A DNA stretch of 64,000 nt, from the NCBI GenBank assembly GCA_021802055.1, contig JAKAAY010000001.1, forward strand, positions 1 through 64,000. The letters are read 5' to 3'. The notes beneath the pieces are model-generated. The model ran no database searches and was not told where the DNA came from. It saw only the letters and a list, made by a program, of their open reading frames with translations. Below are positions 139 to 14,156 of the stretch, piece by piece. Position 1 is the stretch's first letter; every line of letters begins with the position of its first letter. The stretch comes from Thermoplasmata archaeon. GTDB taxonomy: Archaea; Thermoplasmatota; Thermoplasmata; Thermoplasmatales; Thermoplasmataceae. The translations under genes and the position numbers were made by a program.

Positions 139-607
139 GCCAATAGATTATGGATAAATCAGAAATTAATGGTGGTAAAAATTCGGGAGTTCAGGGTATA
201 TATGTCCCTATTTACTGGAAACTTGAGCCCGCCCCCTATTTCAACATCTGGTGAGATATAGCATTCATTGCTTTCCTTCTCTCCCGGATCTATGCCAACG
301 ACGAAACTGTTCATGCGATCATTACTTCTTTTCCCTTATTCATTTTATCCTCCACGGGAGCTCTTATGGCCAGCTAAGAGCCACTTACGGAAAATTTACT
401 GCCTGGATAATTCAGTATTCAATCAGTATTCCGATCCAAGAAAATCATCTCATACCCTGACATTGCGTGAGGCGAATTCCTCTGCAGGATCTGTTGCGCA
501 GAATTCCAACAGCGATAAAGGTAAGGCTTTCAGTAGCGTACTGCTATTCCACCGCACCTGCAATCCCTGACTTTTATATTCAAAGTAATCCTATCTTTGG
601 TCATCTA
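139..607. other. Gene-free stretch upstream of the first AAA ATPase
   Basis: Only short overlapping frames of low coding character lie here, and none has a recognisable product or a ribosome-binding site. The frame of the downstream ATPase is open from 467, but the part before 608 does not look like protein from this family. The stretch ends with the TATA box of the ATPase gene. Confidence 0.5.
571..581 (+). promoter_or_regulatory. TATA-box promoter of the 608-1747 ATPase
   Basis: The T/A-rich run TTTTATATTC is centred about 30 bases before ATG 608. This is the spacing expected if transcription starts at or just before the start codon (leaderless mRNA). It supports 608 rather than 467 as the start. 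Confidence 0.5.
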
Positions 608-1747
608 ATGGATCCTAAGTCATTGCTGGATGAAGCGTACGCCCACGTACAGAGTGCAGAAGCCTGCAGTCAAAGCGGGGATTTTCATGGAGCTTACGTT
701 GAATACACCAAGGCTGCGAATCTTCTCATGGAACTTGCAGGTCAAAGCGCCGGAGAAATAAAAGTTTCCAGGTTGGAGAAAGTGGAGCAACTTGTTGCGC
801 TGGCAGAAAGGATGAAGTATAAATCAAAGGAGCAGAGATTGCAGGATTCACGGAAGCGGGTAAACGCAAATGAGAGAAATATACCCGATTCTCCAAGTAC
901 CTTTGAGGAACTCGGCGTAACAGTTTCGGAAAAGTCTGATGTATCATTCAATGAAGTGGCTGGCCTTGATGACGTGAAGGAGGAGATTTATAACAAGGTG
1001 ATCCTGCCCATGAAGGAAAGGAACCTTGCTAAGGAATACAGGATTTCCCCGGGCGGAGGAATATTGTTGTTCGGCCCACCAGGCTCGGGCAAGACACATG
1101 TTGCCAGAGCTATATCACACGAAGTGAGTGCAAAGTTTGTCATCATCAATCCCTCTGCACTCCTGAGCCAGTGGTTTGGAATGTTTGAAAAGCGCATATC
1201 TCAGCTGTTCGAGATCGCTCGTTCAAATTCTCCTGTGGTTCTGTTCTTTGATGAGATAGATGCTATTGCCCCAAGGCGTAGTAAGACAAATTCATCGGTG
1301 ATGAAAAGGGCAGTTCCGCAACTCCTGGCCGAGATGGATGGTTTTCGAAGGGATACAGGCAGCATGGTCCTCGTCATAGGAGCGACAAATAATCCCTGGG
1401 ATATTGACGAAGCACTCCTGCGCCCTGGCAGATTTGACGAAAAAATTTATGTCAGGCTGCCAGAGGAGAGCGCTAGAAGGAGGATGTTTGAACTTTCCCT
1501 GAGCGGCAGGAAGCTATCGCCTGACATGGATTACGGCAGACTTGCTTCCATATCTGACGGATTCAGCGGCGCTGAAATAGACTATATTTGCAGAAAAGTC
1601 GCCGAAGAAGTGTTCAGGCAATCTGTGGAGACGGGGGTAGCCAGAGATATAGACGAAGCAAAAGTGGAGGAGATCATTGGCAGAACCAGGAAGACAGTCA
1701 ATGATAGTATGCTGAAGAGATATGATGAGTTCATCAAGAGTGGTTAA
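608..1747 (+). CDS. MIT-like domain plus AAA ATPase, Vps4/CdvC-like (paralogue 1)
   Basis: This 379-residue ATPase has an N-terminal helical hairpin (about 1-75) with the pattern of MIT domains, which bind ESCRT-III tails, followed by one AAA module. Walker A is GPPGSGKT at 156-163, Walker B ends in D215-E216, and the sensor region ATNNPW and RPGRFD follow. The C-terminus (DSMLKRYDEF) resembles the closing helix of Vps4/CdvC/katanin proteins. Pore loop 1 is QWFGMFEK, where Vps4 has KWxGESEK. The family unfolds or extracts subunits from polymers by threading. The start at 608 is chosen because a TATA box lies at 571-581 and because the MIT-like sequence begins there. The ESCRT-type role is inferred from the domain order and from the small helical genes nearby. 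A generic proteasome-type AAA remains possible. Confidence 0.75.
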   Translation: MDPKSLLDEAYAHVQSAEACSQSGDFHGAYVEYTKAANLLMELAGQSAGEIKVSRLEKVEQLVALAERMKYKSKEQRLQDSRKRVNANERNIPDSPSTFEELGVTVSEKSDVSFNEVAGLDDVKEEIYNKVILPMKERNLAKEYRISPGGGILLFGPPGSGKTHVARAISHEVSAKFVIINPSALLSQWFGMFEKRISQLFEIARSNSPVVLFFDEIDAIAPRRSKTNSSVMKRAVPQLLAEMDGFRRDTGSMVLVIGATNNPWDIDEALLRPGRFDEKIYVRLPEESARRRMFELSLSGRKLSPDMDYGRLASISDGFSGAEIDYICRKVAEEVFRQSVETGVARDIDEAKVEEIIGRTRKTVNDSMLKRYDEFIKSG

Positions 1748-1908
1748 AATTTGCTGTGCTTTGACCATTATGACATCAAGGTGAACGGTGTGGTGAAAGG
1801 AACGGCGTCCACCGGTTCATGTTGTGGTAAGTCGGATTATGACGCAAAAGGTATCGTTGCGCTTCACGCTGGAAACTAATATATATGTAAGTGAAAGTAA
1901 CCTCCTGT

Positions 1909-2229
1909 ATGTCTTCACTGTCATTTCTAAGCAGCCCTGAAGTCGAACTGGTTCTGATCCTGGTCGATGGCATACTCTTTGGGCTTGGCCTCAAGAAGGC
2001 TTCATGGGCCCTCATATTCATTGTTCTTGCATTTCTGCTGGCCGAGTACATCAATGAGTCCAGCGTCCCGAACCTCACTCTTAGCTCATTTGAAACCATA
2101 CTTTACGATCATTTCTTAAATATCATCAACAGCATAGGGAGCCTGCTTCACATAGGAGGGATCGGGGGGTTAAGCCTCTTTCTTGTAGTATTCATAGTGG
2201 GACTTGCCATTGGTTACCTGAAGGGCTGA
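1909..2229 (+). CDS. Small membrane protein of unknown function
   Basis: A 106-residue protein with a hydrophobic segment at about 10-45 and a glycine-rich one at the C-terminus (about 82-104, ending AIGYLKG), so two or three membrane passes. The start ATG 1909 is preferred over GTG 1891 because a TATA-like run (1878-1886) lies about 27 bases upstream, which fits a leaderless transcript; no Shine-Dalgarno is present. It sits between two Vps4-like ATPase genes and converges on the second. It might be the membrane partner of the system, but that is only positional inference. I do not recognise the family. Confidence 0.6.
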   Translation: MSSLSFLSSPEVELVLILVDGILFGLGLKKASWALIFIVLAFLLAEYINESSVPNLTLSSFETILYDHFLNIINSIGSLLHIGGIGGLSLFLVVFIVGLAIGYLKG

Positions 2230-2282
2230 TTTCCGCGCTCATGTGCCGCGGGCTAAATGCAGCCCGATAACATGCCTAGTGG

Positions 2283-3392
2283 CTATTGAGATGGAACGGA
2301 GCCCCTCAGTTTCCCGTATTGCACATACCTTTCCATAAGACCGGATGATACCGAGGGCTTTATGGTCTTGAGTGAGTCCATTAGTTCCGCCGTGGTGATC
2401 CGCGATTTTTCATCACCATTCACAGCCTTGAGAAATGCATTCTGGGCAGAATACCTGCATATATATTCAACATCAGCTGCACTGTAACCCTCCGTAGAGG
2501 TGGCTATCTGTCCATAATCAATTTCTCCCTTCCTGCTCACTGCCTCCATCTGATGCCGGATTATGGTTTCTCTCGCCGCCATGTCAGGAGGTGGTATGTA
2601 TACCATTCGGTCAAATCGCCCCGGTCTTGTAACTGCAGGGTCCAGAACCCACGGCACATTGGTTGCGCCCAGAATTAGCAGTTCACTGCTGCCATTGGAC
2701 TGAAATCCCCCGATCTCGTTGAGGAATTGAGATACGCCACGTCTGGACGCTTCACTGGAACGCTCATCCCTGACAGGGAACAGGCTCTCAATCTCATCGA
2801 AAAACAATATACACGGAGTAAGTCCCCTGGCTGCAGTAAACAGGGAATTGATATTCTTCTCAAAACTTCCAAACCACTTGCTGTACAGGGTCGATGGATT
2901 GACATAAATGAAATTCATGGAAGTTTCCCCAGCAAGAGCCTTCGCCAGGAAAGTTTTTCCATTTCCAGGCGGACCGTAGAATAACACCCCGCCACCCACG
3001 AACACGTTGAAATCCTTGGCAAGTTCCGGAAATCTAAGGGGATAGATCACCTTGGTGAAGAGCTCGCGCTTTACATCCTCAAGGCCAGCGACATCCTTGA
3101 ATTTTACCTGGTGGCTTGAAATTACGCTGAGTCCCAGTTCTTCTATGGTCTTTAAAGCACCCTCATCAAGCCCTGTGGACTGAGGGGTGTGGCCCTCCAG
3201 GCCTGTTATCACGCTCTGGAGAGATGCCATTCTTCTCCTGATCTTCTCCTTTTCAACCGCATCAGCCCTTGCGAAGTCACGTTGCAGGATCTCTATAGCC
3301 TTTCTGTATAGTTCAACGGCCTGCTTCTTGTTCCCAGAGGATTCAGTTTCCAGACCTTTCTCAAGGAGGTTACGCATCATTTCATTATTCAA
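2283..3392 (-). CDS. MIT-like domain plus AAA ATPase, Vps4/CdvC-like (paralogue 2)
   Basis: This 369-residue ATPase has an N-terminal MIT-like hairpin (about 5-65, with AVELYRKAIEIL typical of MIT helix 2). Its AAA module has Walker A GPPGNGKT at 140-147, Walker B LFFDE at 196-200, ATNVPW and RPGRF. The C-terminal IKPSVSSGLMERYVQY matches the end of Vps4/CdvC. Pore loop 1 is SKWFGSFEK, close to paralogue 1 and unlike paralogue 3. The reading frame begins at TTG 3392; ATG 3380, five codons in, is an equally good start. It is transcribed toward the small membrane protein gene. The likely substrate is an ESCRT-III-like polymer, inferred from the four helical genes 7-11 kb away. Confidence 0.75.
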   Translation of the reverse strand: MNNEMMRNLLEKGLETESSGNKKQAVELYRKAIEILQRDFARADAVEKEKIRRRMASLQSVITGLEGHTPQSTGLDEGALKTIEELGLSVISSHQVKFKDVAGLEDVKRELFTKVIYPLRFPELAKDFNVFVGGGVLFYGPPGNGKTFLAKALAGETSMNFIYVNPSTLYSKWFGSFEKNINSLFTAARGLTPCILFFDEIESLFPVRDERSSEASRRGVSQFLNEIGGFQSNGSSELLILGATNVPWVLDPAVTRPGRFDRMVYIPPPDMAARETIIRHQMEAVSRKGEIDYGQIATSTEGYSAADVEYICRYSAQNAFLKAVNGDEKSRITTAELMDSLKTIKPSVSSGLMERYVQYGKLRGSVPSQ

Positions 3393-3773
3393 TTTAACAA
3401 CATCTCCGGAAATTCTGTCAAGCCCAGAGCATGAAACCTTAAAGTAAGGTCATTACTGAACGTTCCATCATCAAGTCCTAAGTTTGATCCATTAATTGCG
3501 GTTTTTTTGAACATCGACAGTAATTGGAACCACTACGGTTTTATTAACCCTTTTGACCACTGAAGTTTAAAGTCTATTTCTGCCATAGGCAATTCATCTG
3601 CTTGGTGAATAATGAGAACCTATCTGCCCAGAACACCATAAATCACATCCACTTCAGCTTATCCTAGTGCAGGACTGAAGGCATCCCTGAATTGTACTTA
3701 CATTCCCGGTTGATGCCGGAAATATTTTAATTCTACACGAAAGAGATTTAAAGAGACACCATATATAACTCGC
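3393..3773. promoter_or_regulatory. Divergent intergenic region between ATPase 2 and the GTPase operon
   Basis: No gene is supported in these 381 bases. The right end holds a clear plus-strand promoter: TTTAAA at about 3747-3753, some 22-27 bases before ATG 3774. The left end must hold the promoter for the minus-strand ATPase. The two operons therefore diverge from here and could be co-regulated. A T run lies at about 3500-3507. Confidence 0.5.
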
Positions 3774-5648
3774 ATGGGCGAGGAGACCGAATGCGTTTCG
3801 CTTCTCAGAAGGTCATATCAGGAGTCGGCCAGAAACTTTACTGAACTGACCAAGATGAACCTTTTGGAAAAGAAGAGAGTCACAAGGGACCTGGATCTTC
3901 TTTACGCAAACGTGGAGAAGAGTTGTTCCGAGGGTCTTTCGACCAAGGATCTTTCTAGGGCGCTTTCTAACCTAAGGCTCGCACAGTTAAGAACTGCTCT
4001 GTCCATCAGGAATGATCCGGCCGCTAGAGGAATAAATGATCCTGATCTGAATAAAGCCTTAGATCGTTTCACAGCCGATGAATATGCAATGGTGGAAAAG
4101 CTGGAGCGCTTTTCCAACATAGATTCCCTGAACAGCCAGTCAATAACTACTCTGCTGGTTAACAAGGATGATCAAATATATCGACTAATAAAGGAGTGGT
4201 ATGAGGATAATATGGAGGATTTTCTGGGCGCCATCGATCTGCTTTCTGGGCGCAATGTCAGGGGTGAGGTGGCTTCAGCACTGGAAGAACGATACAGAAA
4301 CAGGTTCCAGAAACTTGTTGAGGGCATTGTGGACTACATCCAGCAGGACCCTGGCCAGATAAGAAAACTGTTCATCAACTATGAAAACTCCATGAAGAAC
4401 GCACTGCGGATAGAGTCTAAAAGGCTCGAAGCCAGGAAGAAGATCGTAGACCTGGTTTCAAGTGAAGAGTTTGAGGATGCCCATGATAGGGCTTCTTCCA
4501 TCATTATGCTGGGAAAGGCGAAGAATATTGATGCGCTTGCCAAATCTGATGCGGACGGAGTGATAAGGTCCCTCAAGCTCATAGAAGCGAAAATGAGGGA
4601 GGCCATAGCAGATTTGGAGGATGAAAGGGGAAAGCTGGAGAACGATCCGGAGATGAAAATCAACCCGGTTCTCAAGGAAATAGAGAAAAACAGGCTTGTG
4701 GAACTCGTAGAAGAGGCGAGCATCAAGAGAGAGACCATAGTTGGTGACATCGAGCAGCTGGAGAACCTGAAATCGCTCGCCATAATGAGCAGCAGCGGGG
4801 CGCATAAATCATATGGATCCACTTATTCATGCACATATGATGAGGTTTCACTCAGGAAACACCTGTTCTTTGAGTCAACCACAAATTTTCTACGCAACGG
4901 CGATAACGTCCCGTTATATGTGGCAAGATATAGATATAGCGGGAATATCAGGAATAAGGTTCTTGTAAACGCGATGGAACGCCTCTCTGATGAACCGCTC
5001 TTTTCAGACAGGGGGAGGGAAATTTCAAAGTCGTGGTCGACGGAGTTCATACTGAGAAAGTTCATGTCGGATGTCAGGGTTGGCCTGAATCTCACGTACA
5101 TTGCACATGACGCCCTGTTTTTAGGCGGGAAGGATTCTAAAGGGTCTGGAATCGATGAGACACCCTGCGATGTGGAGGATTTTACAGAGGTATACAGTTC
5201 TCTGGTGCAGTATACCAGAGACAGGGACTGCTATTTCATCAGCATTATAGGATCTCCCAATGGATACTCGAAGGATCTCATTGATATGGTGACCAGACAG
5301 GACGGAAAAGGGCTTTCCGGTACAAACGTCCTGATTTTGCTCAGGGACATGAAGTCCGGCGAAGTTTTCTACAATGCTTCCGATCCCTGCGGAAAGTATC
5401 TCGGATCGCTTCTCTCGTCAGGAAAGGACCTGGAAACCGTAAACTATGAGACAGTCAGAAATGAGACTCTCTCTGAGAGCGGAGTGACTGGAGTGGCGCG
5501 GATGAAGACCATCTGCAAGCTGAGCTCCCTCAGTGAGGCTGAAGTAACAAGGGCCTGGAAGAGGCTTGAGAGTGAGCGTACCGGTAAGATTGACCAGATC
5601 AACGGAGAGTTTGTATTCAGGCTGGCAGCCAAGAATGGAGGCACTTGA
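3774..5648 (+). CDS. 624-residue helical plus alpha/beta protein, first gene of GTPase operon, family unknown
   Basis: I do not recognise this protein. Residues 1 to about 335 are almost entirely charged helix with coiled-coil stretches. Residues about 350-545 look like a mixed alpha/beta domain (strands such as CYFISIIG and NVLILLRD). The last 60 residues (GVARMKTICKLSSLSE onward) look like a winged-helix domain. No signal peptide or membrane segment is seen. ATG 3774 follows a TATA box by about 25 bases, so the mRNA is probably leaderless. The stop is 4 bases before the start of the membrane GTPase, whose Shine-Dalgarno lies inside this gene's end, so the two are coupled. A regulatory or scaffold role for the GTPase is inferred from position only. 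Confidence 0.7.
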   Translation: MGEETECVSLLRRSYQESARNFTELTKMNLLEKKRVTRDLDLLYANVEKSCSEGLSTKDLSRALSNLRLAQLRTALSIRNDPAARGINDPDLNKALDRFTADEYAMVEKLERFSNIDSLNSQSITTLLVNKDDQIYRLIKEWYEDNMEDFLGAIDLLSGRNVRGEVASALEERYRNRFQKLVEGIVDYIQQDPGQIRKLFINYENSMKNALRIESKRLEARKKIVDLVSSEEFEDAHDRASSIIMLGKAKNIDALAKSDADGVIRSLKLIEAKMREAIADLEDERGKLENDPEMKINPVLKEIEKNRLVELVEEASIKRETIVGDIEQLENLKSLAIMSSSGAHKSYGSTYSCTYDEVSLRKHLFFESTTNFLRNGDNVPLYVARYRYSGNIRNKVLVNAMERLSDEPLFSDRGREISKSWSTEFILRKFMSDVRVGLNLTYIAHDALFLGGKDSKGSGIDETPCDVEDFTEVYSSLVQYTRDRDCYFISIIGSPNGYSKDLIDMVTRQDGKGLSGTNVLILLRDMKSGEVFYNASDPCGKYLGSLLSSGKDLETVNYETVRNETLSESGVTGVARMKTICKLSSLSEAEVTRAWKRLESERTGKIDQINGEFVFRLAAKNGGT

Positions 5649-5652
5649 TATT

Positions 5653-7287
5653 ATGATAGGATCTTCAGGCATAACGTTTTTTCCAATTATAAATGTCATC
5701 TCAACCTTCTTTACCCTCATACTGATCTTGGTTGTCTTTCTATGGTTTCTGGCAAGACAAAAACTCATTGTGACCGCACACGGGGTGCTCATAGAGTCCA
5801 GAGACGACTTTTTTTATAAAGTTGTCAGGGGAAGCGCTTATTCTGGAATTTTTCTGGCCCTTTCACTCATTCCGCTGTTCGGATTCATTTTTCTTTTCAC
5901 TTCCGCAGGTTTTGTTTCGAGTTACTCCAAAAGGGTTGGGATTATATCACATAAGCTCAAGACGGGACCGAATTCATATGTCTTTGTGGCTGCCATAGCC
6001 GGGTTTGTGGAGATGATAGCGGGTTTTGCTGATTTCCAACCGTTTTACACTGATCCCGTAATCGGCACACTTGTTGACCTGGCTCTGCCTTTCTTCATTG
6101 CAGCTGCAGCTGCTGCCATTCTTCCCTTCGCGGGGAGATATATGGGGTACTTCACTGTGCTTGTCGCCATTGTACTTATGCTGTTTAATCTACAGGGTGC
6201 AACCACAGTGAGTGATGTTGTCACTGTGATGACGTTTTCATTGCTGTTCCTGCTCGTTGCAGGCATTTTGTACAGCGAGAGACAGAGCTACATCCGCAAG
6301 GGTGGGATGTCAAAGGACATATACGGAACCAAGAAGTTCAACCCGGCTATCCCTCCAGGCACTGCAACTGCAGGTGCACAGCAGCAGGGCACCGTGCCAC
6401 CCAGAAATGTAGATACTGCGTCCGCAACGGCATACCAGCAGACCGTTACCATGCAGAGCCCGTCAATGGGACCCCCGGTGCCAATGACGTCCGCTGACCG
6501 CAAGCTGGCAGCCAGGGATCTCATAGCCATGGTTGGCCCCCCGCTCAGCGGTAAGACCACGTTTCTGGCATATTTCTTCCAGTTCATTGCTGAGATTGAG
6601 ACAAAGACTGGGGTCTCCATAGAGGTGAATCCGGGTATAGAACTCATGGAACAATACCTGAAGAGGATCATATCGGAACACAAGTTTCCGGAGCTTACCG
6701 GAATGGATAAGGTAGGCGAGGTTGTTTTCACCTTTACAAGGAAAAAGAAGATCGGAAAGAGCAGCACGCACCTAAGGGTGAGTGACATTGCTGGGGAGAG
6801 ATTCAGCCAGCTGCAGGGGGCAAAGGAAAGCGTCAGAAGGCAACTCACCAATACAAGGTTTGAGTATCTCCTGAGGGCGAGAGGATACCTCATAATGGTC
6901 GACTGTTCCTCTTACACAGAATGGGCAACAAAGGATCTGGAGTACTGGAGGATACTGAACTCCCTGCTTTCCGCGAGACTGGAAAAAGAACCTCCGAGAA
7001 TAGCCTTCGTTTTCACAAAAACAGACACACTGCCATCCGCCGTTGCATCATACGACGCAATACAGCTCCTGGAAATACTGAAGAACACAAACCTTTATAT
7101 CAAGAAATATGTGAGAAACCCTTCTGCATTCAAGATTTTCATCAAGACAGAGCGATCCTCTGACGGCCAGATTGTGCCAAAACTGGATGTGGATGTTGGA
7201 GGGAGGCTCGACATCAAATATGATTCTGAGTACAATGACGGATTTCTGTACGTGGCCCAGTGGATTGCTGACGCTGGAGGACTATGA
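5653..7287 (+). CDS. Polytopic membrane protein with C-terminal GTPase domain
   Basis: A 544-residue protein. About six or seven hydrophobic helices fill residues 5-215. A Pro/Ala/Gln-rich linker follows, then a P-loop GTPase domain from about 285. G1 is GPPLSGKTT (295-303), G3 is DIAGERF (D378) and G4 is TKTD (455-458), so GTP rather than ATP specificity is expected. The layout resembles the GTPases encoded beside GAP1-N proteins in bacterial predicted conflict systems (DO-GTPase group). ATG 5653 is chosen because GGAGG at 5637-5641 precedes it; ATG 5635 is possible. The stop overlaps the next start in ATGA. The inferred role is nucleotide-switched recruitment of the neighbouring proteins to the membrane. 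Confidence 0.75.
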   Translation: MIGSSGITFFPIINVISTFFTLILILVVFLWFLARQKLIVTAHGVLIESRDDFFYKVVRGSAYSGIFLALSLIPLFGFIFLFTSAGFVSSYSKRVGIISHKLKTGPNSYVFVAAIAGFVEMIAGFADFQPFYTDPVIGTLVDLALPFFIAAAAAAILPFAGRYMGYFTVLVAIVLMLFNLQGATTVSDVVTVMTFSLLFLLVAGILYSERQSYIRKGGMSKDIYGTKKFNPAIPPGTATAGAQQQGTVPPRNVDTASATAYQQTVTMQSPSMGPPVPMTSADRKLAARDLIAMVGPPLSGKTTFLAYFFQFIAEIETKTGVSIEVNPGIELMEQYLKRIISEHKFPELTGMDKVGEVVFTFTRKKKIGKSSTHLRVSDIAGERFSQLQGAKESVRRQLTNTRFEYLLRARGYLIMVDCSSYTEWATKDLEYWRILNSLLSARLEKEPPRIAFVFTKTDTLPSAVASYDAIQLLEILKNTNLYIKKYVRNPSAFKIFIKTERSSDGQIVPKLDVDVGGRLDIKYDSEYNDGFLYVAQWIADAGGL

Positions 7288-8960
7288 GCAATCAGGTTTC
7301 TGCGGAGCAGCTAATTTTCGGGTGGGTTGACAGAGGCAGTTCCAGGGGGTACCAGCTCGTTACCAAATCGAATGGAACCAGGCAGGATGATCTGGACTAT
7401 CTGCAGAAACACAGCCTTCCCTCATCCCTTGACAATCTCACTTTCAGGGAATGCAGGAGGTTGTTTTCGCTCCCCAGCGGAAATCTGGCCTTCAACTATG
7501 TAAAGGGTATAGGCAAGGACGCCTATGGAAGGGAAGGGGCCATTTACAGTCATTTCATAGTCATTTCCCCGCAGGACTTCAGGAGGCTCAACAAGAATTT
7601 CGAAATGGTCGACGCCCACCACCTGAAGGGGATCGCGTCTGTGAAGGACCTTCAGCGTTTCGTCTCTGGTGGAAATTCTGTCCCCCTCCCCGCAATATAC
7701 ATGGAGGCTGAAATAAGCCCACATAAAGGGCTTAACAGCCAGGCAGTTGACTCCCTGGTGTTTCCATTGCTGCAGCACCTTTACGACCGCAGAATCACGA
7801 TAATGTGCAGAATCTCCTCGTACTGGGGATCTCATTCGCTGATCTGGCAACTTGAAAGGATGTTTCCACCCGATCTCCTTGTGTCATATTCAACATATCA
7901 GCGAGACCCTGCATTGGACAGTTTCATAACCATAGGAGTGACGGATTTGCCCTTGGCGCTTCCTCCATATTCCTTCTACATTGATCTTGACTCGGATAAA
8001 CCGGATCTGCTATTCACCCCGGACGGTGTGGCCTGGAGTAATTCGTTTGCTATTCCTCCAGGCTCGATTCTTTACCAGTTATCAGCCTCTATTTCCAGGA
8101 ATCCTGAACTTTACTCCCTTACGGGGAATGTTACACCGGAATCCTATCTTAGGTCTGTTATGGGAACTTTCCTGAAGAGGGCGATCGCTTCCGGGGAGGA
8201 CATGGGCATGCTCATAGGGTCTGTATTCCTGGCAATGGAGGATGGCACGGTGCTCTCCAGGGATGAATTCTATGGGTTTATACGTGAATTCGCAGCCTCC
8301 AGTGTCAACAACAGAAACACGGTCCTTGATCTTTACATGAAATCCATAGATGAAGATCCAGACACCGCGTCCCAGTTCAGGAAAATTAAGGAAATATTCA
8401 ATATAGTCCTTTCCGCTGGAAATGATGAGGAATTCATCGAAAGGTTTGCCCGTGAGTTCTCCAGCAACAGGAAGCTCAACCGAAACAGCATAGCTTGTGA
8501 ATGGGTTGCCAGGCAATTGCTGAATGCCCGTTCAATGCAGCGTTTGAATTCCGCTCTTCTCAGGAGTTCCATATCAGTGTATGAGCAGTGGGTAAAACTT
8601 GCACACAAGGAACAACCTGGCGTTGAAAGTCTCTCCAAAACGCTGGCTATTCTCAGAACGGTCCCTGGAAGCCAGAAAGACGGCAGCAGGCTGATATATG
8701 AGGCCATACACAGCGCAATCAGGATGCAGTCCCCAGACATTCCGGCCTTTGCGGAGCTCCTGATCCATAATGCCTCCAGTATGGAGTTCGATGATTTCGT
8801 TGATGTCGGAATAGAGATGGCAAAGACCCTTGGGATGATCAATGCGCCTGGGAAAGAAGGACTTCTCGAGAACCTTCTTGATATGCTTCAGGAATGTTCT
8901 GGTGAGAGCCGTAAGGCGGATGCTTTTATCAGAAAGTTGAGAGGAGAGGTAGAAAAATGA
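7284..8960 (+). CDS. GAP1-N-like GTPase-associated protein
   Basis: A soluble protein of 558 residues. The first about 200 match the pattern I know for the GAP1-N domain: QLIFGWVDRG at 9-18, a middle stretch with SLPSG, then GREGAIYSHFIVI at 82-94. In bacteria such proteins are encoded next to membrane or soluble GTPases and are thought to be their effectors or adaptors. The rest (about 250-558) is helical and unassigned. It starts at ATG 7284 inside ATGA shared with the GTPase stop, with GGAGG just upstream, and it ends in another ATGA with the next gene, so translation of the three is coupled. The domain call is from memory of the family pattern; a profile search is needed to confirm it. 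Confidence 0.7.
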   Translation: MSNQVSAEQLIFGWVDRGSSRGYQLVTKSNGTRQDDLDYLQKHSLPSSLDNLTFRECRRLFSLPSGNLAFNYVKGIGKDAYGREGAIYSHFIVISPQDFRRLNKNFEMVDAHHLKGIASVKDLQRFVSGGNSVPLPAIYMEAEISPHKGLNSQAVDSLVFPLLQHLYDRRITIMCRISSYWGSHSLIWQLERMFPPDLLVSYSTYQRDPALDSFITIGVTDLPLALPPYSFYIDLDSDKPDLLFTPDGVAWSNSFAIPPGSILYQLSASISRNPELYSLTGNVTPESYLRSVMGTFLKRAIASGEDMGMLIGSVFLAMEDGTVLSRDEFYGFIREFAASSVNNRNTVLDLYMKSIDEDPDTASQFRKIKEIFNIVLSAGNDEEFIERFAREFSSNRKLNRNSIACEWVARQLLNARSMQRLNSALLRSSISVYEQWVKLAHKEQPGVESLSKTLAILRTVPGSQKDGSRLIYEAIHSAIRMQSPDIPAFAELLIHNASSMEFDDFVDVGIEMAKTLGMINAPGKEGLLENLLDMLQECSGESRKADAFIRKLRGEVEK

Positions 8961-10408
8961 GAAGCAAAAATGAGAAGAATAAGGAGGCGGCAAAAACTTC
9001 CGCCGGTGCATTTGACGAGGACTTGGACAGATTCAGCCTTTATCTCATGAGACTGCTGAAGGACCTTGCAAGGGATAAGAAAGTCCCCCGCATCAGAAAG
9101 GAGACCCTGAGGTTCAACATGCCTCTCATCGACTCCATCCTGTCGGGCAGGCTGGACAGGCAACAGTCCATGCAGAGCGCTGTGACTATCATCAGTTCCA
9201 TTCTCTCGGCTGACAGGCTGGAAGCAGAGGACAGGGATTATCTTGTAGCTGCCCAGAGCAAGATGAAAGCAGATCTGAGAGAGATGAACAGGGACAAGCC
9301 GCTTGAGCAGATCACGGCCCTGGTTATGTCTGATTCCCCGGAAGATGTTAAGCGTGGGTTGATGAGACTCGGCGATGAGGTTAAGAACGGGTACAGGGAC
9401 GGAATGGACGGCATGGTTGAAAAGGCGACTAACGCACTGATGGACTCTGATCCAGAGATGGCCATGCTTGCCTCGAAGTTCATCTATTATGCTTCCTCCT
9501 TCAGGAGCAGCGTGTTCCAGTACCACAGGGATGGCATAATGAAGGCCATGAAGAGTCAATCCGCCAGCGTCAGGGCCAGTGTCGTGATGGCGTGTGCCGC
9601 TGCCAGAGACATGACTTCGCTGGATTCCCTCGCCTCCCTGGCTTCCGATCACAGCACTGCAGATATCGGGGCCCTTGGACTTTCCGATTACAAGATAAAG
9701 TTTCCTCATGAGGGGCCTAGGGCCAGGGTCTCTGACGTTGTCCGGGACGCTGTTTATGAGATCATTGAAGCGAGGAACGATAACTCACTCTATATACGGA
9801 AGAGCATCAAAACCTCAGTGAATGAGAACATGGTTACAGGGAAGGAGTATTCCCTGGACATGGAGATAACCCCTCTGGTTGACCTGAAGGGGCTGGAGAT
9901 AGACCTTACGGGAATGCTGGGGGAGTTCGACGTCGTGGGCAACCGTGTGATAGGTTTTGATCTGCTGAAAGCCGGGGAAATGAAATTTGTCGACCCCATA
10001 AAGATCATACCGGAAACGCCAGGACACCGCAAGGGGAAAATCAGGTGCAAGACCTCTAACGGTTGGGAGGCCGTCCTTGAGATTGAGGCTGTGGTGAGCG
10101 AACCAATCAAGAATAACGTGAAATCTGACAACCAGTCTGATCAGCCCCATGTTTCAGGCGTTATCATTGCCGGTCAGTCTTCCCCCATCGACCTGCTGGG
10201 CAAGGATATACAGTCGATGGAGATTACAAGGGCCGTGAATGCACTGGATGAACTCATACGGTTTGCAGGGGATGACACGGGTCTAAAGAACAGGATTGAA
10301 TCGCTCAAACTGATGCTGACCTATAAGGGAACCACTATGATGACCAAGTCTGAGATGGACTCAGCTATGGAGCTTGTGGAGAACGTCAAGAGACGGATGT
10401 ACACCTGA
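8957..10408 (+). CDS. Helical-repeat protein with a beta domain, last gene of GTPase operon
   Basis: The protein has 483 residues and an unknown family. Residues about 20-265 are amphipathic helices in pairs, as in HEAT or ARM repeats. About 280-375 are predicted mainly beta (alternating hydrophobic pattern around EYSLDMEITPLVDLKG). The last 75 are helical. No membrane segment or enzyme motif is visible. It starts within ATGA shared with the GAP1-N gene, with GGAGAGG before it. Its stop codon directly abuts the stop of the convergent ESCRT-III-like gene at 10409. It is probably a scaffold or adaptor of the GTPase complex, by inference from the operon. Confidence 0.65.
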   Translation: MRSKNEKNKEAAKTSAGAFDEDLDRFSLYLMRLLKDLARDKKVPRIRKETLRFNMPLIDSILSGRLDRQQSMQSAVTIISSILSADRLEAEDRDYLVAAQSKMKADLREMNRDKPLEQITALVMSDSPEDVKRGLMRLGDEVKNGYRDGMDGMVEKATNALMDSDPEMAMLASKFIYYASSFRSSVFQYHRDGIMKAMKSQSASVRASVVMACAAARDMTSLDSLASLASDHSTADIGALGLSDYKIKFPHEGPRARVSDVVRDAVYEIIEARNDNSLYIRKSIKTSVNENMVTGKEYSLDMEITPLVDLKGLEIDLTGMLGEFDVVGNRVIGFDLLKAGEMKFVDPIKIIPETPGHRKGKIRCKTSNGWEAVLEIEAVVSEPIKNNVKSDNQSDQPHVSGVIIAGQSSPIDLLGKDIQSMEITRAVNALDELIRFAGDDTGLKNRIESLKLMLTYKGTTMMTKSEMDSAMELVENVKRRMYT

Positions 10409-11026
10409 TCAGGATTTCTGCTTCTCACCCGTTATTTTCTTGATCAGGTCGTCGATCTCCTTGTCACCCGCGGCTTCGGATGACTTCTGGGAAGATTCCA
10501 TTGCCTGAACAGATTGGCCCGTGACTTCCTTCACTATGTCCTCGGCTGAAACACCACCACGGGACGCAAATTCCTGGAGTGATTCGCCAAGTGTGCTGAA
10601 CTGTTCCTCCAGCCTGGTTTCTAGGTTTTCCGTGCTTTCGTTAATGGAGCGCAGGTTGTTCTCTATCTCCCTTGCCTGTTCATCGGTGAGCATGCGCTTG
10701 CCGAGGTCAGTGTGTGCCTCAGACAGGGTCCTGTTGATCTCCCTCTCATTGTACACAAATTCAAACGTGATTTCAAGGTTGTCAAGGTAAAGCGAAAAAC
10801 TCCTGAGGTAATCAATTGCGCTTTTGATCCTTTTGGCGTTCTGTGCTGCGTTGAGCACACCCCTGTTGTCCTTGATGGCGGCGGCGGACTTCAGGTTGTT
10901 TATTGCCTGGTTCAGAAGCTGCTGCTGCTTCTTCAGGTTTCTGTCCACCTGGGCCTTATATCCCCTGATCTTGCTTCTAGTCTCGAACCTCTTGTCATCT
11001 TCCGACTTTCGTAGCTTGATACTCAT
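10409..11026 (-). CDS. ESCRT-III/Snf7-like helical protein with C-terminal MIM-like tail
   Basis: A 205-residue protein. A basic N-terminus is followed by a long helical hairpin (about 20-95), then shorter acidic helices (about 98-150), a flexible stretch and a final short helix DDLIKKITGEK (192-202). Basic hairpin first, acidic helices second and a tail helix last is the layout of Snf7/CHMP and CdvB subunits, which form membrane-bending filaments. The tail matches the MIM1 pattern only in part (L194, K197, I198). It has its own promoter (11055-11067) and lies 127 bases after the previous gene of the cluster. Assignment rests on layout and neighbours, not on a recognised signature. Confidence 0.6.
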   Translation of the reverse strand: MSIKLRKSEDDKRFETRSKIRGYKAQVDRNLKKQQQLLNQAINNLKSAAAIKDNRGVLNAAQNAKRIKSAIDYLRSFSLYLDNLEITFEFVYNEREINRTLSEAHTDLGKRMLTDEQAREIENNLRSINESTENLETRLEEQFSTLGESLQEFASRGGVSAEDIVKEVTGQSVQAMESSQKSSEAAGDKEIDDLIKKITGEKQKS

Positions 11027-11054
11027 TTTACCGCAGTTGTAGCAACCGTTATTC

Positions 11055-11067
11055 CTTAATTAAATAT
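11055..11067 (-). promoter_or_regulatory. TATA-box promoter of the 10409-11026 gene
   Basis: On the minus strand the run ATATTTAATTAAG is centred about 35 bases before ATG 11026. Transcription would begin about 10 bases before the start codon. It separates this gene from the operon that ends at 11153. Confidence 0.45.
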
Positions 11068-11152
11068 TCCTCATGTTTACCTGACATGCCTGATACTGCC
11101 TGGGCTGAAAGCCTGCAGAAGGTCCGTTAGCACATATCAGTGCACGTTTTCA

Positions 11153-11731
11153 TCACTCTTTCTCGTCAGTCTCGCCAAGTTTGCGGAGCCTCTCCTTGAG
11201 TTTATCTTCCAGGTCGCTGAGGTCTTTCCCGGTCTTTGATGGATCTGATACCTGCGTCTTGCTGGTTTCCTGGTGTTCGGGAAATGTTGTTCCCACGTCC
11301 TCAAGAAAACCACTGAAGAGATCCCCGATTCGCTCGCTCTGGTTCTTCGCCTTTTCGAGCTCCCCCTCAACTGTGGACATCCACGAAGGTCTTATCTTGC
11401 TTCCAGAGAAAGTCCTGACAAACGTTTCCATGGCATCGGAAAAGCTCGACAGGACTGAGGACTGATCCTTCATCATTTCCATGTCGGATACAATGAGGAG
11501 AAACGACCTGATCTTCTGGGCCTCCGTCTTCAGGGAATTGGATTTCTCCTGGAAGACTTTGAAAAGCGGCTCGTTGTGTATCTGGGCTGCGTCAGCCGCT
11601 TTTTTGTCGTATGTTGCAGCAATGGCGTCACATTTGGAGGCGTATTGCTGAGCTTTGTTCTTGAGCATCTGTATGCGAATCCCTGACTCGGCTTCCGCTT
11701 CCTCCCTTGATCTCTTGTCAAAGAGCTTCAT
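11153..11731 (-). CDS. ESCRT-III-like helical protein with near-consensus MIM1 tail
   Basis: A 192-residue protein beginning MKLFDKR, similar to the short amphipathic start of CHMP proteins. Helices span about 10-45, 50-90 and 95-140, then comes a disordered linker (about 145-170). The last helix contains EDKLKERLRKLG at 175-186. This fits the eukaryotic MIM1 consensus (D/E)xxLxxRLxxL(K/R) at E175, L178, R181, L182 and L185; only the final K/R is Gly. MIM1 is the peptide that Vps4-type MIT domains bind, and an MIT-like ATPase is encoded in the same operon. The start overlaps the stop of the upstream gene (ATGA at 11731-11728). The ESCRT-III call is an inference, strengthened by this motif. 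Confidence 0.65.
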   Translation of the reverse strand: MKLFDKRSREEAEAESGIRIQMLKNKAQQYASKCDAIAATYDKKAADAAQIHNEPLFKVFQEKSNSLKTEAQKIRSFLLIVSDMEMMKDQSSVLSSFSDAMETFVRTFSGSKIRPSWMSTVEGELEKAKNQSERIGDLFSGFLEDVGTTFPEHQETSKTQVSDPSKTGKDLSDLEDKLKERLRKLGETDEKE

Positions 11732-12372
11732 GATAGTATCACCCCCTCATCGTCTTCCTCCTCTTCCTTGCGGTTTCCGTCTACTGCTTTAATCCCGGCT
11801 TCATTTGAAGCATGAGAAGCTTCGGAATAGCGTACCGAACCCGGTGATCTTCTAGCTTCAACATAGACCTCCAGAGTCTCCAGGGACCGCTTCATCCTGA
11901 GCTCAGATTCCATACTCTCCCTTGTGGACTCCTTGAACTGATCAAGATTTTTCTTCTTGAGGACCCTGTCAATGTTTTTCAGCAGCTTCTGGCCATTCAC
12001 CATTTCCTGCAGGGATACCAGAGTGGAAAGGAACCTGTACCTGAGCTGGAGTTCGTCCATGCCTTTCTTCTTTGCTTCTATCATATCCATTGCACTCTGG
12101 AGCTTGACCTTTGCCAGAGTGTCTTCCTGGCCGCTGTACCTTTTCGATTCGCCCTCCAGTCGCTCAATTTCATCCTTAGCCATTTCCAGCATTACGTAGG
12201 TGTCCTGCATGGATTTTCTCAGGATCCTGGCGCCCCGCTTCCCCAAGTACTTCTTGCTGCCGAACGACTTCCACATGGACATCAGTGTCTCTATCCATTC
12301 CGTCTTGAAGTCTGAGGACGGAGAATTTGCCATGAGCTTATCCATCACGCTACTACGTGAAATATTCCACAC
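11728..12372 (-). CDS. Coiled-coil protein of the ESCRT-like operon, family unknown
   Basis: This is a 214-residue, strongly charged, mostly helical protein. Helices at about 22-75 and 80-125 could form the long hairpin of an ESCRT-III subunit. The end (EEEEDDEGVILS) is acidic and probably disordered, with no MIM pattern that I can see. The frame starts at GTG 12372, 11 bases after the ATPase stop; ATG 12345 is an alternative and would remove nine residues. It is translationally coupled to the MIM1 protein downstream. Function is inferred only from operon position between the Vps4-like ATPase and an ESCRT-III-like protein. Confidence 0.6.
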   Translation of the reverse strand: MWNISRSSVMDKLMANSPSSDFKTEWIETLMSMWKSFGSKKYLGKRGARILRKSMQDTYVMLEMAKDEIERLEGESKRYSGQEDTLAKVKLQSAMDMIEAKKKGMDELQLRYRFLSTLVSLQEMVNGQKLLKNIDRVLKKKNLDQFKESTRESMESELRMKRSLETLEVYVEARRSPGSVRYSEASHASNEAGIKAVDGNRKEEEEDDEGVILS

Positions 12373-12383
12373 CCCCGGTGATT

Positions 12384-13568
12384 TCAGTTGCCTGCATATT
12401 GCTCCTTCCAGTCCTGATATCTTTCCAGCATGCCCCTGTCGGCAACAGGCTTTACCTTTTCAAGAGCCGCATCAAAGTCAGCCTGCGTGATCTTGCCCAC
12501 CTGATACTTCAGCTCTCCGGATCCGGGAGGTGTGACTGAATCACTCCTGTCAATGGCATCCCTGTTCGTTCTTCTCAGCATGTGCCATATTGCTTCCGAA
12601 CAGAGGAATGCAAGGTCCCTTCCTGAAAAATTCACTGTGGACTCGGAAAGCACGGACAGATCCAACCCGACCTCAAAGCCCTTATCGACCGTGTTTATCC
12701 TCAGGATCTTCTCCCTGGTCTTAGCATCCGGAAGGCCTACGTATATCTTCTTTTCGAACCTTGAGAGTATTGCTGTGTCCAGCTTCCACGGGACATTGGT
12801 GGCTGCAACGGTCATCACGAAATTGTCACCAGTGCCAAAGCCGTCAAGCTGGCTCAGGAATTGCTGTACAACGGAGGAGGAAGTTGAGTTCCCGTTGTCC
12901 CTGCTCAGAACCAGGTTCTCAACCTCGTCCAGGAATATGATGGAGGGCGATCTCGCTCTGGCCGTTTCGTAAAGGGCCCCCACAAGTCTTTCAGAGTCTC
13001 CCACGTATCTGGAAACAAGTTCTTTTCCATTAGCATTGAAAAAGGTGGCATCTATGTTTGCCGACATGGCCTTGGCAAGAGAGGTTTTACCTGTTCCGGG
13101 CGGTCCAAACAGCAGCATGTTCCTCAGTTTTGGCACCTTGACGTTAGCTGATGGTGTCGCCCGGGCAAAGAAGAATGCTTCCCTTATGAGTGCCTTTTCC
13201 TCATCGAGTCCCCCTATTTCCGACCATTTTGTGTCTGCAGTTGAGATCAGAGATTCAATCCTGGACCTGAACTCATTTTCCATCTTGTCTATGAGGCCGC
13301 TGTCGTTCTTTGTCTTCTGGGTTGACCGGGACATTCTCTCATTACTCCCGAGAGAAGCTTTTTTCTTCACCCATTCCTCCTTTATCTCGAGATATCTTTC
13401 CCTGTCGGATGCGTCCAGATCTGCCAGAAGCTTGAGTTCACCTATTATGGTGTCGCACAGGGCCGATGCCTTTTTCATATCACCGCCTGATTCAGCGTCT
13501 GATACTTTCTTAATATTTTCGCCTATGAGCTTTCTGAGGTTGTCGATGGTAAGGTAGTCTGCGCTCAA
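12384..13568 (-). CDS. MIT-like domain plus AAA ATPase, closest of the three to Vps4/CdvC
   Basis: A 394-residue ATPase with a helical MIT-like N-terminus (about 5-70), a linker, then an AAA domain introduced by KWSEIGGLDEEK. Walker A is GPPGTGKT at 155-162 and Walker B is IFLDE at 211-215. Pore loop 1 SRYVGDSERLV is close to the Vps4 KWxGESEKLV, and SRFEKKIYVGLP (269-280) corresponds to Vps4 RRFEKRIYIPLP. The C-terminal VKPVADRGMLERYQDW matches the terminal helix of Vps4. These are hallmarks of the ATPase that disassembles ESCRT-III filaments. It starts at TTG 13568, six bases after the stop of the upstream coiled-coil gene. No CdvA-type gene is nearby. Confidence 0.82.
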   Translation of the reverse strand: MSADYLTIDNLRKLIGENIKKVSDAESGGDMKKASALCDTIIGELKLLADLDASDRERYLEIKEEWVKKKASLGSNERMSRSTQKTKNDSGLIDKMENEFRSRIESLISTADTKWSEIGGLDEEKALIREAFFFARATPSANVKVPKLRNMLLFGPPGTGKTSLAKAMSANIDATFFNANGKELVSRYVGDSERLVGALYETARARSPSIIFLDEVENLVLSRDNGNSTSSSVVQQFLSQLDGFGTGDNFVMTVAATNVPWKLDTAILSRFEKKIYVGLPDAKTREKILRINTVDKGFEVGLDLSVLSESTVNFSGRDLAFLCSEAIWHMLRRTNRDAIDRSDSVTPPGSGELKYQVGKITQADFDAALEKVKPVADRGMLERYQDWKEQYAGN

Positions 13569-13574
13569 CAGGAT

Positions 13575-14156
13575 TCACTCTTCTTTTTCCTGGCTCTTTT
13601 CACTTTCTTCTGACTGGGTGCTCTTCTCCTTTGAACCGGGGAGCAGATTTTCCTTGTTCTTGTCCATTTCACTGAAGAGCTTCATGAACTTGTTTTCGCT
13701 CTCTGAGGTTGACTCCTCTTCTGTAGATTTTACGTCCGAAATCCCCTGAAGAAGTTCGCCTCTCTTCCTGTCATTAACCTTCTCCCTGGACCTGTTCTTG
13801 ATCATTATGTCCTTGATATCTTCAGGATTTGCGTTCATGATGATGTCGCTGCCGGCCTCCTTGGTCTGGGATTTGGCAAGTTTGACCTCCTCGATGATGT
13901 CTATGTTGTCCCTGTAAATTTTCATCCTCTTGTCCAGGTCCTTGATGCTCCTTTCAAGCCTGCTCAGTTCATGGGCGATGTCTGCTCTTCTTGTGCCTGA
14001 GGCACTTGCCCCTTCCTTGAACAGTTTGTCAAATTCAGCCTTCTTCCTGTCTCTTTCCTTGCCGAGGAGACTTACCTGTGTCTCTATCTGCACAATCCTC
14101 TCGTCCGCCTGCTCGGGGGAGAGGTCTGTCACATCCTTCTTACGGAAAAATTTCAT
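13575..14156 (-). CDS. Coiled-coil protein, first gene of ESCRT-like operon
   Basis: A 193-residue protein starting MKFFRKK, a short basic amphipathic start like that of CHMP2/3. Two antiparallel-looking helices follow (about 18-48 and 58-100), then an acidic, Ser/Glu-rich, probably disordered tail (about 130-193). This fits an ESCRT-III-like core, but no MIM motif is clear. ATG 14156 lies about 27 bases after a strong TATA box, so the operon mRNA is probably leaderless. The next gene, the Vps4-like ATPase, follows six bases after the stop. The family is not recognised with certainty. Confidence 0.6.
   Translation of the reverse strand: MKFFRKKDVTDLSPEQADERIVQIETQVSLLGKERDRKKAEFDKLFKEGASASGTRRADIAHELSRLERSIKDLDKRMKIYRDNIDIIEEVKLAKSQTKEAGSDIIMNANPEDIKDIMIKNRSREKVNDRKRGELLQGISDVKSTEEESTSESENKFMKLFSEMDKNKENLLPGSKEKSTQSEESEKSQEKEE

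Follow-up and report, generated by a model that had tools for sequence, protein, structure and literature searches.

Introduction

ESCRT-III (endosomal sorting complex required for transport III) proteins form filaments on membranes, and human and Asgard members recruit the ATPase that recycles them through a docking motif. This MIT-interacting motif of type 1 (MIM1) binds an MIT domain between its helices 2 and 3. In eukaryotes it is carried by ESCRT-III proteins of the CHMP3/Vps24 class (PMC7240154), and its consensus is (D/E)xxLxxRLxxL(K/R) as printed in PMC11998489. MIM1-like tails are also known from the Vps2/24/46-type ESCRT-III proteins of Asgard archaea (PMC7240154). CdvB, on the other hand, has no MIM1 and uses MIM2 (PMC5840170), and the lack of MIM1 in crenarchaeal ESCRT-III has served to set the Cdv systems apart from the eukaryotic ESCRT (PMC7240154). 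A 2022 survey found no ESCRT-III-to-Vps4 interaction domain or motif in euryarchaeal Cdv (CdvB) proteins (PMC8970359), and the ESCRT systems of the Thermoplasmata have been described as minimal (Makarova et al. 2024; PMC10936438). DO-GTPase/GAP1 systems, in turn, have been described as conflict systems present mainly in bacteria (Kaur et al. 2020; PMC7159879). Here we analyse a stretch of 64,000 nucleotides of a Thermoplasmata archaeon (contig JAKAAY010000001.1, positions 1 to 64,000; hereafter the window), in which a composite locus (467-14156) carries genes for two ESCRT-III proteins (H3 and H4), three AAA ATPases with MIT-type domains (AAA1, AAA2 and VpsA), a DO-GTPase, a GAP1-like protein, a HEAT-like protein and a protein named X, together with two helical proteins, H1 and H2. 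H3 is a divergent ESCRT-III subunit, and it has a conserved MIM1-like tail in an archaeal group where no such motif had been recorded. The original prediction, made from the DNA sequence alone, had set this tail against the proline-rich MIM2 of crenarchaeal CdvB, in agreement with PMC5840170.

H3 resembles the eukaryotic Vps2/Vps24/Did2 (CHMP1-3) class in its core architecture, its variable linker and a C-terminal helix with the hydrophobic register of MIM1, and the profile of the related H4 matches CHMP3/Vps24; H3 differs by its very low sequence similarity, the absent final K/R, the variable internal Arg and its archaeal gene context. With the Asgard Vps2/24/46-type proteins it shares a MIM1-like C-terminal helix with Leu/Ile substitutions, carried by an archaeal ESCRT-III, but its locus belongs to another phylum, and has a DO-GTPase module instead of ESCRT-I/II or ubiquitin parts, none of which was seen. 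Like the crenarchaeal CdvB/CdvC pair, the window combines an ESCRT-III bearing a C-terminal tail with an MIT-AAA ATPase, and the modelled MIT domain of VpsA is closest to that of Sulfolobus Vps4. However, CdvB carries the proline-rich MIM2 and is tied to CdvA, whereas H3 has a helical tail and belongs to a genome with two FtsZ/tubulin-family genes. The minimal Thermoplasmata system (PMC10936438) probably corresponds to the H4-type ESCRT-III plus the ~370-aa Vps4 of relatives; H3, VpsA, H1, H2 and the DO-GTPase/GAP1 genes are extra in the window locus, and none of them is mentioned in the main text of that paper as searched. Finally, as in the described DO-GTPase/GAP1-N2 systems (PMC7159879), a membrane-anchored DO-GTPase is followed by a GAP1-N2-like gene. 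Here the set is archaeal and coupled to ESCRT-III and MIT-AAA genes, and the FNIII or GASH partner and the variable effector of such systems were not found, Pfam giving no match to these domains among the locus proteins. The main text of PMC7159879 never mentions Vps4 and has no ESCRT term.

Results

A conserved MIM1-like tail in H3

The H3 open reading frame (ORF) is real: it has an ATG start, which overlaps the stop of the upstream gene. Its motif EDKLKERLRKLG fits the MIM1 consensus at each fixed position except the final one, where G stands instead of K/R, as had been claimed for residues 175-186 and as the translation of the ORF bears out. The acid/hydrophobic/Arg core (D/E)xxLxxRLxxL is matched exactly at the C-terminus. 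When the alignments were read by eye, no MIM2 of the CdvB type (proline-rich, phi-P-x-phi-P) was seen in the tails of H3 or H4.

Conservation of the tail had been named beforehand as the test of the prediction, and orthologues were searched in 117 genomes of the order. Strong H3 orthologues were found in 16 of them, all within the window's own archaeal family, which includes Cuniculiplasma (one of these genomes is labelled Cuniculiplasma sp. in the public record). Three weak matches of the first search (L007-L009) lay in unrelated genes and were discarded. A C-terminal helix in the same register, behind a variable linker, is present in 13 of the 16 orthologues, so that the tail is kept across 13 sequences. 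In these, residues 174, 178, 182 and 185 (window numbering) are hydrophobic in all 13, and residue 175 is acidic in 12. Averaged over alignment columns, identity reaches 0.45 for the core and drops to 0.17 for the linker, compared with 0.39 for the tail and 0.16 for the six final residues. The pattern of the motif core, [DE]xx[LIM]xxx[LIM]xx[LIM], occurs in 10/11 H3 orthologues, against 0.16 expected when the last 45 residues are shuffled, and in 7/196 ends of unrelated ORFs at these loci; when R/K is also required at position 7, the counts are 5/11 and 0/196, all of them treating related sequences as separate and thus overstating independence. Given the orthologue conservation and the shuffle test, the match of the tail to MIM1 is not due to chance.

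H3 belongs to ESCRT-III

A direct Snf7 search of the window genome gave no match, and ESCRT-III membership is therefore shown through relatives. The orthologue L013 matches Pfam Snf7 over the cut-off (E=5.8e-7), and Snf7 was matched by 3 of 11 H3 family members, the window copy not being among them. Moreover, the H3 and H4 families align end to end by profile, with 98.7% probability. An AlphaFold2 (AF2) model of H3, built from ten sequences, has helices at residues 2-50, 54-85, 91-110 and 115-149, then a linker of low confidence and, at 165-191, a C-terminal helix; this is the ESCRT-III layout, with a long hairpin of helices 1 and 2, helices 3 and 4, a linker and a C-terminal helix. The best 15 PDB matches of the model in Foldseek are all ESCRT-III superfamily proteins, including CHMP1B/IST1, Asgard ESCRT-IIIB, Vipp1/PspA, CHMP2A-CHMP3 and CdvB. 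A sequence search of the PDB with the H3 profile gave no match.

The second subunit, H4, is closer to canonical Thermoplasmata ESCRT-III. Snf7 is matched by 11/14 members of its family (best 1.2e-11; only E=0.008 for the window copy), and its profile matches human CHMP3 at 1.6e-6, and also Vps24. H4-type proteins occur in many members of the archaeal family, beside or near a ~370-aa Vps4. Their tails form a short helix, (D/E)xx(L/I)xxL(L/I)xx(I/L), with a hydrophobic residue where MIM1 has Arg; the tail pattern is found in 8/14 family members, against 0.25 expected from shuffling.

Three MIT-type AAA ATPases in the same locus

The first 14 kb of the window contain three AAA ATPases, all with MIT-type domains, two by weak sequence match and one by fold (Table 1). 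The claim of three MIT domains nearby thus held, the matches of AAA1 and AAA2 lying under the Pfam cut-off. Pfam MIT is matched by 8/12 AAA1-type family members (best 2.7e-8), and the MIT region of AAA2 matches that of AAA1 by profile at 95%. The N-terminal domain of VpsA has no sequence match and was modelled as a three-helix bundle (pLDDT 84), whose first Foldseek matches were 2w2u and 2v6y, Sulfolobus Vps4 MIT structures that include one solved with CdvB (template modelling score 0.78-0.81 on target length, probability 1.00, E 0.05-0.15). Matches to the C-terminal oligomerisation domain Vps4_C are weak (E=0.024 for VpsA and 0.14 for AAA2). PADLOC matches to IetA reflect only the common AAA domain, and a PHROGs search gave no match. 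AAA1 probably does not begin as early as its listed GTG (467): the extra 47 residues (467-607) have no homology, and Met 608 is the likely start.

Table 1. Features of the composite locus, in order of window position.
Feature	Position	Strand	Basis and remarks
AAA1, Vps4-like AAA ATPase	608..1747	+	homology starts at Met 608
MIT domain of AAA1	626..811	+	Pfam MIT E=4.9e-5, model positions 1-63 of 66, under curated cut-off
AAA2, second Vps4-like AAA ATPase	2283..3392	-	N-terminal MIT at residues 9-57, Pfam MIT E=3.9e-4, under curated cut-off
X, 624-aa partner upstream of GTPase	3774..5648	+	homologues adjoin GTPase/GAP1 in other genomes
DO-GTPase, about seven N-terminal hydrophobic (transmembrane-like) segments	5566..7287	+	DO-GTPase2 E=3.2e-11, over cut-off
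GAP1-like protein (GTPase-associated protein, N2-type start)	7284..8960	+	GAP1-N2 E=4.9e-4, just under cut-off
HEAT-repeat-like partner protein	8957..10408	+	HEAT_2 E=0.01, weak; conserved beside H4 and GAP1
H4, second ESCRT-III subunit, near canonical Thermoplasmata ESCRT-III	10409..11026	-	Snf7, profile match
MIM-like C-terminal tail of H4, DKEIDDLIKKI	10433..10465	-	alignment; position 7 hydrophobic, not Arg
H3, divergent ESCRT-III subunit, 192 aa	11153..11731	-	Snf7 in relatives, H4 profile match, AF2 model, Foldseek
Predicted C-terminal helix of H3, residues 165-191, enclosing the motif	11159-11239	-	AF2 model
MIM1-like motif of H3, residues 175-186	11174..11209	-	sequence, orthologue alignment
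H2, helical protein, gene lies between VpsA and H3 in every case	11728..12372	-	conserved acidic C-terminus; no Pfam match
VpsA, AAA ATPase with divergent MIT-type N-terminal domain	12384..13568	-	AAA 1.9e-36
MIT-like domain of VpsA, model residues 3-83	13320..13562	-	Foldseek
H1, helical protein upstream of VpsA	13575..14156	-	no match over a cut-off

Joint absence of the tail and of a neighbouring ATPase

In most Cuniculiplasma-type genomes the gene string runs H1, VpsA, H2, H3 and then an additional MIT-AAA gene, AAA1b, which the window genome lacks. Three H3 orthologues, L106, L107 and L108 (genomes G082, G087 and G086), keep the core and have no C-terminal helix. They end in ...SKTEDAY or a similar string, and no frame downstream holds any trace of the tail. 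AAA1b is absent from the same three genomes, where the contigs continue into other genes; searches of the whole genomes found one AAA1-type gene elsewhere, plus Cdc48. VpsA was found in G082 and G087, and the G086 contig begins at H2. In the sister genome G081, an adjacent MIT-AAA gene and a degenerate tail are both present. The joint absence points to AAA1b over VpsA as the reader of the tail, which is only suggestive because the three genomes form one clade and represent a single event.

A DO-GTPase/GAP1 module accompanies H3

In other genomes, too, related sets of GTPase-module genes occur within the H3/H4 loci or close to them. Among the 117 genomes, H3 is present in 16, DO-GTPase2 in 17 and both in 15 (Fisher p=7e-16, not corrected for ancestry). 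In G104, the H3 genome with no DO-GTPase2 match, a GTPase was found with a purpose-built profile, and the two genomes with the GTPase only are 71-72% complete. In genera g1, g3 and g17, the members lacking one of the two genes also lack the other (G001, G002, G004, G022, G018, G078 and G079), and the coupling therefore holds across several gains or losses. This co-occurrence suggests a GTPase-linked ESCRT system. The true start of the DO-GTPase is probably downstream of 5566.

Discussion

H3 is an ESCRT-III protein, and its C-terminal helix probably binds the MIT domain of a Vps4-like AAA ATPase from the same system. Most likely, H3 would polymerise at the cytoplasmic membrane by means of its Snf7-type core, and the docked ATPase would then extract subunits, disassemble the filament and drive remodelling. 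The partner of the tail would be the adjacent AAA1b in Cuniculiplasma-type genomes and, since the window genome has no AAA1b, AAA1 or AAA2 in the window.

Several observations weigh against this reading. On its own, the H3 copy of the window does not match Snf7 at any E up to 1, its model is of medium confidence (mean pLDDT 66, >80 in the hairpin) and the Foldseek E-values are modest (best 1.2e-3). The joint absence of tail and AAA1b, besides being a single evolutionary event, comes from genomes that are 72-85% complete. The description of the motif as near-perfect suits the window genome and does not extend to the family, where no orthologue has a basic residue at 186 (D, E, N, S, G or L instead) and residue 181 is basic (Arg/Lys) in only 8/13 tailed orthologues, the other 5 having G, S or N. 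Because the final K/R is absent throughout and the internal Arg is replaced in 5/13, H3 may lack salt bridges that are typical of MIM1. Other MIT grooves can also accept helical MIMs (PMC9477494).

This last point raises a possible, if doubtful, alternative, namely that the tail is a MIM other than MIM1, bound to the MIT domain in another groove or orientation, for example Type 3 or Type 7. The helices of CHMP1B, IST1 and CHMP3 use several modes (PMC9477494), and the basic residues of the H3 tail are not conserved; however, the hydrophobic positions and the leading acid fit the MIM1 register in nearly all orthologues. It is unlikely that the helix does not bind MIT domains at all, and instead folds back on the core (autoinhibition) or packs on another subunit or on the membrane. 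Amphipathic helices often show its hydrophobic spacing (i, i+4, i+8, i+11), and the variable Arg and missing terminal basic residue would fit such a role, but the extreme C-terminal placement after a variable, low-confidence linker is the arrangement of a MIM, three MIT-type ATPases are encoded in the same locus, and the tail is gone where the adjacent MIT-AAA is gone, with the core retained. Nor do we favour VpsA, encoded two genes upstream, as the ATPase that reads the tail, which we regard as quite unlikely: it belongs to the same gene string and has an N-terminal domain of MIT fold, but VpsA with this domain conserved is retained in tail-less genomes, and none was seen in the g16 loci L013 and L014, which retain the tail. 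That a charged coiled-coil protein matches the motif by chance, as the richness of the tail in K, E and L and the many opportunities of reading a window by eye might suggest, is refuted by the conservation across 13 orthologues, with the shuffle test and the ESCRT-III homology also speaking against it, and is highly improbable.

A conserved MIM1-like tail in this group implies that helical MIM tails predate the Asgard archaea or arose more than once. The GTPase-linked setting is a more novel lead than the tail itself, and our literature search found no report joining DO-GTPase/GAP1 with the Thermoplasmata ESCRT. We give about even chances to the idea that some Thermoplasmatales-type archaea have a GTPase-controlled ESCRT machine, consisting of two MIM-tailed ESCRT-III proteins, two or three MIT-AAA ATPases and a membrane-anchored DO-GTPase/GAP1 switch, gained or lost as a unit, in which the H3 tail is read by a dedicated MIT-AAA and the GTPase would control the ESCRT system. 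The link suggests that ESCRT and a GTPase switch earlier treated as a mainly bacterial conflict system cooperate on archaeal membranes. The machine, if real, would place GTPase-controlled membrane remodelling by such a system outside Asgard archaea and eukaryotes. Besides the ESCRT system, the window genome carries two genes of the FtsZ/tubulin family (G000, contigs C31 and C26); a Cdv-type system for division is therefore less likely than another function, for instance budding, repair or defence.

Two further observations concern other proteins. A strong Snf7 match in a distant genome of the phylum (L128, G395 contig 59) has eukaryote-looking neighbours, is probably eukaryotic contamination and was ignored. 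H1 and H2 were considered as further ESCRT-III proteins and rejected by profile comparison. The C-termini of H2 in the window and in L100-L109 are acidic and end in D/N-x-V-hydrophobic (EDDEGVILS in the window; DEDGDVMTS, NDNVDVV and DDVEVL in relatives). This acidic end is retained also where H3 has lost its tail, and may be a second linear motif.
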